In this document: one piece after another, positions 43,759-46,870 of the stretch
Position numbering within the stretch: the stretch's first letter is position 1
Layout: every line of letters begins with the position of its first letter
NCBI RefSeq assembly: GCF_015207035.1
Contig: NZ_JADEXQ010000046.1
Coordinates: forward strand, 1 to 48,085
Origin: Romeriopsis navalis LEGE 11480
GTDB taxonomy: Bacteria; Cyanobacteriota; Cyanobacteriia; Leptolyngbyales; Leptolyngbyaceae
DNA: 48,085 nucleotides
Direction of reading: 5' to 3'
Translations under genes and position numbers: made by a program
The notes under the pieces: generated by a model
The model's database searches: none
Told to the model about the DNA's origin: nothing
Seen by the model: the letters and a program-made list of their open reading frames with translations, nothing else

Positions 43759-44162
43759 GTCATTGCTCACTAACCCTGATTTTCAACTAACTTGCCCTTA
43801 ATACTGTCGGCAAGTCGTGTGTCCTTTACGCAGCAACCCCTGAGCCAGATTTGGTTCAGGGGTTGCTGTTGATCAGGTATCTAACACAAATAGTGAAAAA
43901 TTTGAGTTTGAAAATATTAGTTGACGATTTACAAATTCCTGCGCTAACGTCGTAGGTAAGAAATTTATTTCCGCCCAACGAGGCAATTATGCTTTCTGAA
44001 AAATTCTATTTTTGGTTTAACAGTGCTCACAGGTCATGACGTCTCTCGACAACATGATGCTAGTGAGCCGTGGACCTGAACAGTCTGCGGCTTTTGGTTT
44101 GAAGGGCGAACTACCGTTAGCACCTGCTATCTGAGATCAACACTCGTGATTCACACAATCCG
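43759..44162. other. intergenic region between mscL and the aroF leader
   Basis: About 400 bases with one hairpin (43831-43868) and no supported gene. The aroF promoter should lie here, before the leader peptide at 44163; no canonical -35/-10 pair stands out. Confidence 0.45.
43831..43868 (+). terminator. long hairpin after mscL
   Basis: CAGCAACCCCTGAGCC and GGTTCAGGGGTTGCTG pair over 16 bp (one G-T) with a 6-base loop. No U tract follows, so termination is likely but less certain than for the others. Confidence 0.65.
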
Positions 44163-44228
44163 ATGATGCAACTGCAATCCTGGTTTTATGGTTTTTATTT
44201 TTTCTGGCACCTCAGGCGTTCCGGATAA
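44163..44228 (+). CDS. aromatic leader peptide of the DAHP synthase attenuator
   Basis: A 21-codon ORF starting with two ATG codons and ending in TAA. Codons 7-15 read WFYGFYFFW (44181-44207): eight of nine residues are Trp, Phe or Tyr, covering all three products of the pathway. The last codons (LRRSG, stop) overlap one arm of a 13-bp inverted repeat. No strong ribosome binding site is seen, which is common in cyanobacteria. A run this rich in aromatics right before a DAHP synthase gene, coupled to competing RNA hairpins, is what attenuation leader peptides look like (compare trpL, pheL). Translation is inferred, not shown. Confidence 0.8.
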   Translation: MMQLQSWFYGFYFFWHLRRSG

Positions 44229-44258
44229 GTTGGCCATGCGACTTTTTTGCATCCTTCT

Positions 44259-44297
44259 AACCCGGAACGCCTGAAATGGCTTCCGGGTTTTCTTTTC
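44259..44297 (+). terminator. regulated intrinsic terminator upstream of aroF
   Basis: AACCCGGAA and TTCCGGGTT are perfect 9-bp arms, extended inward by GCC/GGC with one bulged C, and followed by TTTTCTTTTC. It ends 57 bases before the aroF start, so in this position it must be conditional if aroF is expressed from an upstream promoter. Confidence 0.85.
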
Positions 44298-44354
44298 GCC
44301 TAATTCAGGCGATTGACAACATCACTTCCAATATTCACTTCAGGAGCAAATTCC

Positions 44355-45212
44355 ATGAAAAATGCAAAACTCGTCGGCAAATCTGACCTAAACAAAAAGT
44401 CAGTCGTTCGGCTCAATGAGCGATTATCGATTGGCGATCGCGATATCTTGATCATCGGTGGTCCTTGTACGGTCGAAAGCCAAGCACAGATGGATACAAT
44501 CGCCCAACAACTCACAGGCTCAATCCAAGCATTACGCGGCGGCGTCTACAAACCCCGCACATCACCCTACGCTTTCCAGGGCATGGGGACAAATGGGATT
44601 GAGATCTTGGCAAGAACGAGCCGCGCATCGGGCCTGCCCGTCGTCACAGAAGTGATGGCAATCCAACAGATTGAGACCCTGGCCAATCAAGTTGATATGC
44701 TGCAAGTCGGTAGCCGTAATATGCAAAACTTCGATTTGCTCAAGGCCCTAGGAGAAGTTGATAAGCCTGTTTTACTGAAGCGGGGATTAGCCGCCACGAT
44801 CGAAGAATTCATCATGGCGGCAGAATATATCGTTAGCCACGGTAATCCCAATGTTGTGTTGTGTGAACGCGGTATTCGCAGCTTCGACAACTACACGCGC
44901 AACGTATTGGATTTAGGCGCCGTGTCAGCCCTAAAACATCTGACCCATTTACCCGTAATTGTTGATCCAAGTCATGCCGCAGGACGCCGGGAACTGATTG
45001 GGGATCTATCCCGCGCGGCGATCGCCTGTGGCGCAGATGGCTTAATTATCGAATGTCACCCTGAACCCGATCAATCTGTGTCCGATGCACAACAGGCCTT
45101 ATCTCTCCCAGCTATGGCCCAACTTGTGGAGAGTTTGCGACCAATCGCCACAGCCGTTGGCCGCCACTTACCACTGAGCCCCGTTCAGAACCCCGCATTA
45201 ATGGCTGCCTAG
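44355..45212 (+). CDS. aroF: 3-deoxy-7-phosphoheptulonate synthase (DAHP synthase, AroA/AroF type I-beta)
   Basis: A 285-residue enzyme. The ATG at 44355 is preceded at 8 bases by AGGAG; a TTG at 44313 in the same frame is less likely. Motifs of the KDO8P-synthase-like DAHP synthases are present: IIGGPCTVES, GGVYKPRTSPYAFQG, LQVGSRNMQNF, KPVLLKRG, LCERGIR and PVIVDPSHAAGRRE, plus IIECHPEPDQSVSD. It condenses phosphoenolpyruvate with erythrose 4-phosphate, the first step toward Trp, Phe and Tyr. No ACT or chorismate mutase domain is fused, so feedback control at the protein level is not obvious; the leader upstream may compensate by sensing all three products. Confidence 0.96.
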   Translation: MKNAKLVGKSDLNKKSVVRLNERLSIGDRDILIIGGPCTVESQAQMDTIAQQLTGSIQALRGGVYKPRTSPYAFQGMGTNGIEILARTSRASGLPVVTEVMAIQQIETLANQVDMLQVGSRNMQNFDLLKALGEVDKPVLLKRGLAATIEEFIMAAEYIVSHGNPNVVLCERGIRSFDNYTRNVLDLGAVSALKHLTHLPVIVDPSHAAGRRELIGDLSRAAIACGADGLIIECHPEPDQSVSDAQQALSLPAMAQLVESLRPIATAVGRHLPLSPVQNPALMAA

Positions 45213-45347: not shown

Positions 45348-45902
45348 GTGCTACTTACTCGGACGTTAGTGGGAGACAGGAAGATTTTGCAGCCGGAGAA
45401 TCACCCCAACCTTAGCGAACTGTACGACACCTATGGCGAAGCCGTTTACCGACTCTCGCTCAGGATGTTGAACAACGCAAGTGATGCTGAAGATTTGACG
45501 CAAGAGGTCTTTGTCGATTTCTGGCAAAAACAGAAATACGACCCAGACCGAGGCAGTCTCATCACCTTTTTGCTGATGATGACGCGATCGCGGGCACTCA
45601 ACCGCATCCGCAAACGCCAATCCAGGCAGCAACTAGTGCAACGCTGGGAAAAAGTCATGCCCATGAGCCATGCTGATGAATCTTTTGATCAAGCCGCTCT
45701 CTCCGAACTTTCCGTGCAAATCCGCAATGCGTTGCAAGAGATCCCCGAAGCCCAGCGTCAAGTTTTAGAACTGGCCTACTACGAAGGTCTGAGCCAATCA
45801 GAAATTACTGAACGGCTCGAGATCCCCCTCGGAACTGTTAAAACGCGATCGCGTCAAGGATTGCTCAAACTTCGCAAACTCCTACACAACCTTATGGACT
45901 AA
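45348..45902 (+). CDS. ECF-type RNA polymerase sigma factor
   Basis: A 184-residue sigma-70 family protein from a GTG start. Region 2 has NASDAEDLTQEVFVDFWQKQ and region 4 has EIPEAQRQVLELAYYEGLSQSEITERL with the helix-turn-helix IPLGTVKTRSRQGLLKLR. The absence of regions 1 and 3 marks it as ECF. The gene 17 bases downstream encodes a membrane anti-sigma factor, so it is probably held inactive until an envelope or redox signal arrives. It resembles cyanobacterial SigG/SigI-type factors, but I do not assign a letter. Confidence 0.92.
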   Translation: MLLTRTLVGDRKILQPENHPNLSELYDTYGEAVYRLSLRMLNNASDAEDLTQEVFVDFWQKQKYDPDRGSLITFLLMMTRSRALNRIRKRQSRQQLVQRWEKVMPMSHADESFDQAALSELSVQIRNALQEIPEAQRQVLELAYYEGLSQSEITERLEIPLGTVKTRSRQGLLKLRKLLHNLMD

Positions 45903-45919
45903 CCCAGTAAACGCTGATT

Positions 45920-46870
45920 ATGGATAAGTTGAATTGGTCTGATAACCCCGAATATTTAGAAGCACTGCTCGCTGGTTATGCTTTAGGTGACTTGTCACCG
46001 GAAGAAATGGATCAGGTGCAAAGTTACCTTGAACAAAACCCAGCATCCGCCGATGAATTGACCAAGCTCCAAACGACATTGGCCCTCTTGCCGCTGTCAC
46101 TGCCGGAAGCGCCGCCATCACCCGATCTGAAAAGTCGCATTTTGGCAGCAGCGGCACGGAGTGATATGCCGCCGGCAGTCATCCCGACGACAAACGATGC
46201 ATCGCGATCGACGCCCAACTCAACCGTTGAATTGCCATCGCTTCAACCACCCGCGCCCGGTGCACCAGCTGCACAGGCTGCACCAGCTGCACCGGCTGCA
46301 CCCGGGAAGAATAATGTGATCAGCCTCAGTGAACAGCGGCGTCGACCACGGACACAGCGCAGTACTTGGATGGTTGGCTCTATTGCCGCTGGGTTACTAG
46401 CAGTCCTGGGATTCCAGAACTACAAGCTGACCCAAGATATGGCTGAACTTAAACAAGCCGTCGTCGCCCAACAGAGCCAGCAAAATAATTACCAAACCCA
46501 ATTGGTGAAATACCAAGAAACGATCGCCATGCTGCGTCAGCCCAATAACCGGCTGATGGCCATGAAAGGCATGGAAGATAAGTCTTCTGGCAGCCTCGTG
46601 ATTGTGCCAAAGGACCAAAAGGCCGTCCTCACACTGCAAAACGTCCCCCCACTGCCCCAAGGACAGATGTATCGCCTCTGGGCCATGGTGAAAGGTAAGA
46701 AAGTTTACTGTAGCGAATTTAAACCGACAGCCGACGGCAGTGTATTCGTGAATATCCCATTGGATGATTTGGGTGATGCCAAATCAGTCGCCGTGACCAT
46801 CGACCCCCAAACCGCCGATAAGGCCAAACCGGTGGGTGATATGGTGATGGAAGGCGCAATCTCGATTTAG
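45920..46870 (+). CDS. anti-sigma factor with RskA-like C-terminal domain
   Basis: A 316-residue membrane protein. The N-terminal cytoplasmic part has the anti-sigma helical region LLAGYALGDLSPEEMDQVQSYLEQNP. A low-complexity Ala/Pro linker (about 112-130, encoded by GCACCAGCTGCACC-type repeats) is followed by one membrane helix (about 155-172; WMVGSIAAGLLAVLGFQNY), a coiled-coil-like stretch and an RskA-type beta domain (about 215-316; VLTLQNVPPLPQGQMYRLWAMVKG). It should bind the ECF sigma factor encoded just upstream and sense signals outside the cytoplasm. No HCC zinc motif is visible. A 16-bp tandem duplication spans its stop codon. Confidence 0.9.
   Translation: MDKLNWSDNPEYLEALLAGYALGDLSPEEMDQVQSYLEQNPASADELTKLQTTLALLPLSLPEAPPSPDLKSRILAAAARSDMPPAVIPTTNDASRSTPNSTVELPSLQPPAPGAPAAQAAPAAPAAPGKNNVISLSEQRRRPRTQRSTWMVGSIAAGLLAVLGFQNYKLTQDMAELKQAVVAQQSQQNNYQTQLVKYQETIAMLRQPNNRLMAMKGMEDKSSGSLVIVPKDQKAVLTLQNVPPLPQGQMYRLWAMVKGKKVYCSEFKPTADGSVFVNIPLDDLGDAKSVAVTIDPQTADKAKPVGDMVMEGAISI

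Follow-up and report, generated by a model that had tools for sequence, protein, structure and literature searches.

A conserved tandem leader with two putative ribosome-mediated attenuators ahead of a cyanobacterial DAHP synthase gene

The trp, pheA and pheST leaders of Escherichia coli share with the locus described here a layout in which antiterminator and terminator are mutually exclusive and the position of the ribosome would decide between them. In classical leaders an additional hairpin serves the untranslated state; at the aroF leader it is not clearly seen. Codons for several products of a shared pathway are pooled in one leader, as here, in the ilvGMEDA, ilvBN and thr leaders of enterobacteria, which differ in that they concern branched-chain amino acids or threonine, not aromatic ones, and consist of a single element. 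T-boxes, unlike the aroF leaders, bind tRNA directly and do without a translated leader, and the E. coli enzyme AroF belongs to class I-alpha, unlike the type I-beta enzyme encoded at our locus. Tandem T-boxes of Firmicutes have been described as two amino-acid-responsive switches in series ahead of one gene, a feature that recurs here (PMC9413887, in the section dealing with them). The E. coli trp, pheA and pheST leader peptides are rich in the product concerned, like those at aroF, but in the account given by the relevant passage of PMC11802643 each serves one amino acid through a single element and stands before different genes. For E. coli aroF-tyrA, an attenuation hypothesis has been put forward (Camakaris 1980, as referred to in passages of PMC8632094 and PMC2659441), which likewise concerns a DAHP synthase gene and differs in that Tyr-tRNA is said to be sensed. 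In the aroR-aroF attenuator of Corynebacterium glutamicum (Neshat et al. 2014, as summarized in passages of PMC11802643 and PMC4046766), a short aromatic leader peptide precedes a DAHP synthase gene under ribosome-mediated attenuation, as proposed here, but the leader is single, carries Phe-Tyr-Phe, is reported to respond to Phe and not to Tyr, and belongs to another phylum; the passages of both articles that treat it mention neither Trp codons nor a second attenuator. The uORFC-13-1 motif upstream of aroF in Acholeplasma (PMC8632094) also combines a predicted uORF holding Phe codon(s) with a terminator and aroF, whereas the part of that article devoted to it names Phe only, describes no Tyr/Trp run and no second element, and restricts the motif to Acholeplasma and unassigned environmental sequences.

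As for cyanobacteria, a passage of PMC4833913 (2016) states that there were no reliable data on ribosome-mediated attenuation, and the openly licensed full-text literature holds, among the matches listed, no description of a tandem aroF leader element; no such leader appears in the excerpts of PMC5126843, PMC1242208, PMC3766115, PMC7007895 and PMC7693272 that were consulted. The statement of the initial annotation that no attenuator of this type has been described in cyanobacteria agrees with these sources as far as they were covered. The mechanism class is known, and the tandem layout, the reading of three amino acids and the phylum appear to be new in the open literature searched.

The locus lies in a window of 48,085 nt from Romeriopsis navalis LEGE 11480 (contig NZ_JADEXQ010000046.1), which is the whole stretch of DNA that was analysed. 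The initial annotation had placed one attenuator ahead of aroF; this interpretation is well supported and at the same time incomplete, as a second switch about 180 bases upstream had been missed. What had been reported forms the downstream half of a longer, tandem leader, which starts at a promoter-like site near 43921 (Table 1), and aroF is very probably controlled by two ribosome-mediated transcription attenuators in series. The DNA itself shows which parts are present, how they are conserved, that both helices of both elements carry paired changes, where the aromatic codons lie and that confident model matches keep to one branch of the enzyme, while we infer that transcription begins at the promoter-like site, that the leaders are translated, that ribosomes stall there on uncharged tRNA and that termination actually takes place.

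Table 1. Leader elements and the aroF gene in the window, in order of position.
Feature	Position	Strand	Evidence or remark
Promoter-like site, TTGACG - 18 nt - TAACGT	43921..43950	+	Layout conserved upstream of uORF1
uORF1, first leader peptide MLSEKFYFWFNSAHRS	43989..44039	+	In 143 of the 146 loci that have 600 nt or more upstream
uORF1 antiterminator arm A, over the last uORF1 codons	44025..44035	+	Covariation, folding
uORF1 antiterminator arm B	44062..44078	+	Pairing read from sequence; covariation, folding
uORF1 intrinsic terminator-like hairpin, 11 pairs	44065..44093	+	T tract weak, reaching to around 44099
uORF2, second leader peptide MQLQSWFYGFYFFWHLRRSG	44166..44228	+	Present in 141 of 146 loci
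uORF2 antiterminator arm A, TCAGGCGTTCCGG	44212..44224	+	3' end one base short of the stop codon
uORF2 antiterminator arm B, CCGGAACGCCTGA	44262..44274	+	Complementary to arm A over all 13 bp
uORF2 intrinsic terminator and T tract	44259..44297	+	Sequence; pairing kept across relatives
aroF, type I-beta DAHP synthase, catalytic domain only	44355..45212	+	NF006421 and TIGR01361 over cut-off; PF00793

The reported element itself has been found as described. The 21-codon ORF rich in Trp, Phe and Tyr is present at 44163-44228 (MMQLQSWFYGFYFFWHLRRSG), with an extra in-frame ATG at 44163, and relatives align with the second ATG at 44166; the stop codon occupies 44226-44228. The perfect 13-bp inverted repeat with its first arm over the end of this ORF is exact, the 5' arm of the terminator does overlap the second repeat arm, and the start codon of aroF indeed follows 57 bases after the T tract. 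In the terminator stem AACCCGGAA (44259-44267) pairs with TTCCGGGTT (44281-44289), with an inner GCC/GGC, and TTTTCTTTT comes next. The segment 44163-44297 folds with -43.2 kcal/mol (z = -3.75), a stability that is equalled in 0 of 200 shuffles, and the best 9-residue stretch among ORFs of 12-30 aa in the 400 bases upstream of aroF contains 8 aromatic residues, which two-mer shuffles of those 400 bases have reached in 0 of 2000 cases (7 being reached in one). A chance origin of uORF2 and its hairpins is ruled out by conservation together with these shuffles. The bulged stem of this terminator has been missed by a simple terminator scan, whose single match is the upstream 44065-44093 hairpin; as one match stands against 2.2 expected by shuffling, the scan alone is no evidence.

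The upstream element follows the same design as the downstream one, namely a leader ORF, an antiterminator arm on its last codons and a terminator with an overlapping 5' arm. Its antiterminator pairs in two registers, GCTCAC (44025-44030) with GTGAGC (44063-44068) and CAGGTC (44030-44035) with GACCTG (44073-44078). Covariance models have been built from the uORF2 element (R1, 35 sequences including the window) and from the uORF1 element (R2), and R2 finds 44001-44101 at 49.7 bits, the window being among its 35 source sequences. Upstream of uORF1, a promoter pattern of TTGACN and TANNNT with 16-18 nt allowed between them, searched within 130 nt, has been observed in 134 of 142 loci with spacers of 17 or 18 nt; shuffling yields it in 1.5 of 141 on average. 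Neither between uORF1 and uORF2 (0 of 136 loci) nor in the stretch that begins 50 nt past uORF2 and extends to aroF (0 of 136) has this pattern been seen. A general promoter scan has not reported the 43921-43950 site, and it is this consensus evidence that suggests transcription of the leader from there. A Shine-Dalgarno-like motif precedes uORF2 in 44 of 140 loci (13 in shuffles), and no excess of such motifs has been seen ahead of uORF1 (7 of 143, with 8 in shuffles).

For a first set of aroF orthologues, the best 80 of 564 relatives, the upstream region has been scanned over as much as 500 nt, and most of them carry two aromatic ORFs there, not one. From Cyanobacteriia genomes, 83 of which had a full-length match of the same aroF branch, 76 loci have been added; the window's own genome and six others (G024, G042, G068, G078, G413 and G543) were left out, and an R2 match is present in all six. 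Together with the window this gives 157 loci, or 150 distinct ones after subtraction of seven duplicates, and 146 of them have at least 600 nt upstream. The four shorter loci comprise L191 (323 nt upstream), where uORF1 is present, L027 (394 nt), where neither leader has been seen, and L038 and L068, where 102 and 47 nt are too short to tell. Leaders have been detected by dense aromatic codons and a terminator-like pattern with thresholds, and some assignments have been made by hand, the uORF2 start in L076 and L133 being set by hand or at the nearest start codon. Each of the 146 loci holds at least one leader: uORF1 occurs in 143 and uORF2 in 141, both in 138, where uORF1 always comes first with a median gap of 90 nt, uORF2 alone in three and uORF1 alone in five, two of which (L067 and L069) carry a longer, uncounted aromatic ORF at the place of uORF2.

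The peptides are diverse in sequence and uniform in make-up, 130 of 144 uORF1 and 124 of 141 uORF2 peptides being distinct, with 50 and 55 different orders of W, F and Y, respectively, within the last 15 residues. All three aromatic residues are found in 141 of 144 uORF1 and 137 of 141 uORF2 peptides, the uORF2 count fitting the earlier proposal of one switch for Trp, Phe and Tyr. A terminator-like hairpin with a T tract follows all 144 uORF1 and all 141 uORF2 leaders, a pattern that served as acceptance criterion for most of them. One locus with tandem aromatic leaders before aroF (L076:1700-4186) lies on a contig labelled Obscuribacterales, where the ORF after aroF reads by eye like a chorismate mutase-prephenate dehydrogenase fusion. 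Since the aroF branch is confined to the class in a 386-genome draw from the phylum (0 genomes outside it), a transfer or a mislabelled contig is likely in this case.

The initial annotation had suggested a comparison with aroF relatives, and both the aromatic codons and the pairing of both hairpins turn out to be conserved in them. Pairs have been counted for the named structures in 35 sequences per element, picked for diversity, and in these alignments terminator and competing antiterminator keep their pairing through two-sided changes in both elements. The uORF2 terminator has 92.2% of cells paired and two-sided changes in 7 of 11 pairs, a value that none of 500 shuffles attains. In the uORF2 antiterminator 85.1% of cells are paired, and 19 cells with two-sided changes compare with 6.9 in shuffles (0 of 500); its numbers of two-sided pairs (4) and of pair types (14) are not above shuffles, 121 and 77 of 500 reaching them, while cells paired and covariation score do exceed shuffles. 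For the uORF1 antiterminator with its inner hairpin, 87.0% of cells are paired and 11 of 18 pairs change on both sides (1 of 500 shuffles), columns 29-40 with 70-81 of this structure having 91.7% of cells paired and 6 of 12 pairs two-sided, and the uORF1 terminator reaches 95.1% of cells paired with 4 of 10 pairs two-sided (5 of 500 shuffles). When the partner is slid by 1-3 columns, pairing goes down to 11-59% in all four structures, where some excess over the slid versions is to be expected because the structures have been derived from the same sequences. As the outer terminator 5' arm is shared, terminator and antiterminator are mutually exclusive at the outer pairs.

Selection on the leader codons has been followed in nearest-neighbour pairs (54 for uORF1, 45 for uORF2) by ungapped comparison. 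In the set used here, as in the Shine-Dalgarno counts, the promoter shuffles and the whole-leader folding, two uORF2 peptides (L133 and L149) are read in a wrong frame. Changes from one aromatic codon to that of another aromatic residue make up 23 of 80 cases in uORF1 and 20 of 70 in uORF2, about four times more than the roughly 7% expected, and synonymous changes of aromatic codons account for 19 of 80 and 18 of 70, with about 13% expected. Exchanges of an aromatic codon for a non-aromatic one or the reverse, for which about 80% would be expected, are found in 38 of 80 and 32 of 70. Taken across the entire leader, synonymous changes have a share of 0.296 in uORF2 (expected 0.192) and 0.193 in uORF1, the latter as by chance (expected 0.189) in what is a weak test. 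These substitutions indicate that the aromatic make-up is kept more than the exact peptide, the order being free to drift, and a reading of codons therefore fits better than an arrest peptide or a small protein.

The geometry of the proposed switch has been modelled by masked folding, in which a ribosome stands on the first aromatic pair and covers 13 nt beyond the A site and the RNA ends before the terminator 3' arm. With the ribosome halted in this manner, the terminator 5' arm is held by arm A with a mean probability above 0.5 in 144 of 144 uORF1 and 135 of 141 uORF2 leaders; with the ribosome at the stop codon this happens in none, and outer terminator pairing is obtained in 142 of 144 and 139 of 141. 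For the window, the probability of the outer terminator pairs is 0.00005 halted and 0.92 at the stop in uORF2, and 0.47 and 0.94 in uORF1. The earlier suggestion that a stalled ribosome frees arm A, and that a ribosome at the stop hides it, is thus supported by masked folding. In the finished RNA at equilibrium with a halted ribosome, no more than 97 of 144 uORF1 and 45 of 141 uORF2 leaders keep their outer terminator pairs below a probability of 0.5, and because this equilibrium often favours the terminator despite the halted ribosome, the switch would need the antiterminator to be formed first, as classical attenuators are likewise understood to act. Shuffled arms pair above 0.5 in 1371 of 2880 (uORF1) and 1428 of 2820 (uORF2) trials, and only in 104 of 144 and 71 of 141 leaders does the real arm score at least as high as every one of its 20 shuffled versions. 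Equilibrium folding of the whole structure lets only 20 of 143 uORF1 and 42 of 140 uORF2 leaders switch, and it has been dropped as a switch test since it gives the contested outer pairs too little weight and takes no account of the order in which the RNA is made. Folding of the whole leader has given no clear hairpin for the untranslated state; with no ribosome, the terminator-stem probability is 0.26 (uORF1) and 0.14 (uORF2) in the window, with mixed values over the loci (medians 0.63 and 0.96).

The aromatic codons are concentrated 7-12 codons before the stop in uORF1 and 7-14 in uORF2, which is close to where a ribosome has to halt if arm A is to stay free. At least 90% aromatic codons are seen 8-12 codons before the stop in uORF1 and 7-10, 13 and 14 codons before it in uORF2; position 11 of uORF2 is mostly not aromatic (0.19), and within the last six codons no position is aromatic in more than 8% of leaders. 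In uORF2, W, F and Y codons are all effective in 130-132 of 141 loci with footprints of 9 to 15 nt. In uORF1, positions 7 and 8, often Trp, fall outside the arm-A-free zone with the 13-nt footprint, and the Trp codon is effective in 151 of 167 cases at 9 nt and 147 of 167 at 11 nt, against only 22 of 167 at 13 nt and 7 of 167 at 15 nt. A reading of Trp by uORF1 thus depends on the footprint assumed.

Under the proposed mechanism, one promoter would give rise to a leader of about 400 nt, in which the terminator 5' arm of each element could alternatively be held by the antiterminator arm over the last leader codons. When charged Trp, Phe and Tyr tRNAs are plentiful, the ribosome would reach the stop codon and cover the antiterminator arm, and the terminator would form; when one of the three is scarce, the ribosome would halt on the aromatic run, the antiterminator would form and RNA polymerase would continue. 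Both terminators would have to be passed before aroF is transcribed. If this holds, classical ribosome-mediated attenuation would exist in cyanobacteria as a widely kept device, and it would explain how a DAHP synthase without a regulatory domain follows the demand for all three end products. A tandem Trp/Phe/Tyr switch of this kind sits at the entry of the shikimate pathway and could be useful for the engineering of aromatic compounds in cyanobacteria.

That only the downstream element works and uORF1 is a relic of duplication is very unlikely. The window's R2 score of 49.7 bits, against up to 113 in relatives, its poor T tract and the three loci with uORF2 alone speak in favour of such a relic, but five of the 146 loci and genome G116 keep uORF1 alone, the uORF1 element has kept its pairing no less well than the uORF2 element, and the promoter-like site precedes uORF1. 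It appears very unlikely that the leaders act as arrest peptides, with the nascent aromatic peptide itself halting the ribosome, perhaps by binding a free aromatic amino acid in the exit tunnel, as in TnaC, and thereby controlling the terminator. The recurring cores WFYGFYFW (with Gly or Ser in the middle) and YFYFW and the mostly non-aromatic codon 11 before the uORF2 stop would suit this idea; arrest peptides of the TnaC kind need particular residues, however, and the many W/F/Y orders (e.g., FYFNGFFYW, WWYGFYFW and WLFSFYFFW) and the frequent swaps between aromatic residues argue against it. Halting by a high level of the amino acid would moreover turn the gene on by plenty, which is odd for a biosynthetic gene.

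Two conserved and covarying alternative structures suit any terminator switch, including a riboswitch or a leader bound by a protein or tRNA (T-box or TRAP-like) in which the ORFs are incidental, a reading that we regard as highly improbable. Ahead of the hairpins, conservation lies in the run of aromatic codons, which stands in frame with a stop codon overlapping or adjoining the antiterminator arm, and none of 4227 Rfam families reaches its gathering score in the window, neither the amino acid leader families nor the T-box; a permissive Rfam search of 43900-44360 (E up to 10) has returned four matches far below gathering scores. Finally, class-wide conservation of the peptides might point to small functional proteins, or the ORFs might serve only for re-initiation at aroF. 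Both are extremely improbable, given that nonsynonymous changes in uORF1 are as common as by chance, that neither the competing helix nor the terminator separating each ORF from aroF would have a role, and that 126 bases separate the uORF2 stop from aroF in the window. Control by two ribosome-mediated attenuators in series is the preferred reading.

With regard to specificity, in the genome of the window R1 picks out the reported site alone, and the match after it has E = 1.23. Across the 386-genome phylum draw, R1 has matched 37 genomes at E < 1e-7 and a protein search has placed the aroF branch in 38 at E <= 1e-95, with all 37 contained in the 38, and in 36 of the 37 the R1 site ends 16-175 nt before the aroF match. 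The thirty-eighth genome, G116, has uORF1 alone. In the remaining R1 genome (G382) the site lies ahead of a split aroF with the C-terminal part 6.3 kb away. At this locus (L228, G382:C1:3950300-3957900), the leader and the first part of aroF are seen about 5.7 kb from the rest of the gene, and a 425-aa recombinase-like ORF, named by eye, stands right after the break, an arrangement reminiscent of excisable elements in heterocyst formers. Weak R1 matches (E from 2e-5 to 1e-2) occur in 27 of the 386 genomes and have been regarded as background; 20 of these are small genomes of family f31, elsewhere in the phylum, where T-rich sequence is the probable source. R2 has matched 85 genomes of a 242-genome class draw, 81 of which possess a full-length aroF of the same branch. 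In the four others the aroF copies are cut or decayed: in G415 aroF is cut by the contig end, and in G455 and G469 contigs end close behind the leaders. In the fourth (L233, G030:C48:72300-74500), a well-kept uORF1 runs into an apparent decayed remnant of aroF, an arrangement that a deletion from the leader to mid-gene might have left. A full-length aroF without an R2 match is found in G537, which has uORF2 only, and in G414, where uORF1 is divergent. A search of plasmid records has found no similar DNA.

Confident model matches are seen only at one branch of type I-beta DAHP synthases, which lacks the regulatory ferredoxin-like domain. This domain (PF18152) is absent from the AroF of the window even with a longer start at 44313; the closest solved chains are 1vs1 and 1zco, and the match to 1rzm begins at residue 69 of the latter. 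The other cyanobacterial type I-beta branch, with about 50% identity, carries PF18152 in 3 of 3 tested proteins, and a leader with terminator has been found in 0 of 19 fetched upstream regions, one of which (L223) shows one short TTG-started ORF and no terminator. In a third DAHP synthase group (about 55% identity), a leader-like ORF (MKNSQFWYSFTFRSATGVRHRSG) and a strong terminator have been observed in one of four loci, L204 (G396:C15:366482-367342), where the leader-like ORF differs and the PF18152 regulatory domain is kept. The switch would do for AroF what feedback inhibition does for enzymes with a regulatory domain, and, uORF1 and uORF2 being kept together in most of the examined Cyanobacteriia that have an AroF of this branch, we tentatively consider a serial double lock possible, in which uORF1 might read mainly Phe and Tyr and uORF2 Phe, Tyr and Trp, sharpening the response and replacing feedback inhibition. 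The idea that the switch replaces feedback is appealing, yet it is not strict, because L204 has both a leader-like ORF and a regulatory domain.

The genome of the window holds one further DAHP synthase, of class I-alpha. In the stretches taken from the same genome for two chorismate-binding (trpE-like) genes and a prephenate dehydratase gene, no dense aromatic leader has been found, with at most 4 aromatics in 10 residues. Downstream of aroF, at 45348-46870 of the window, lie ORFs that resemble by eye an extracytoplasmic-function sigma factor and its anti-sigma partner.
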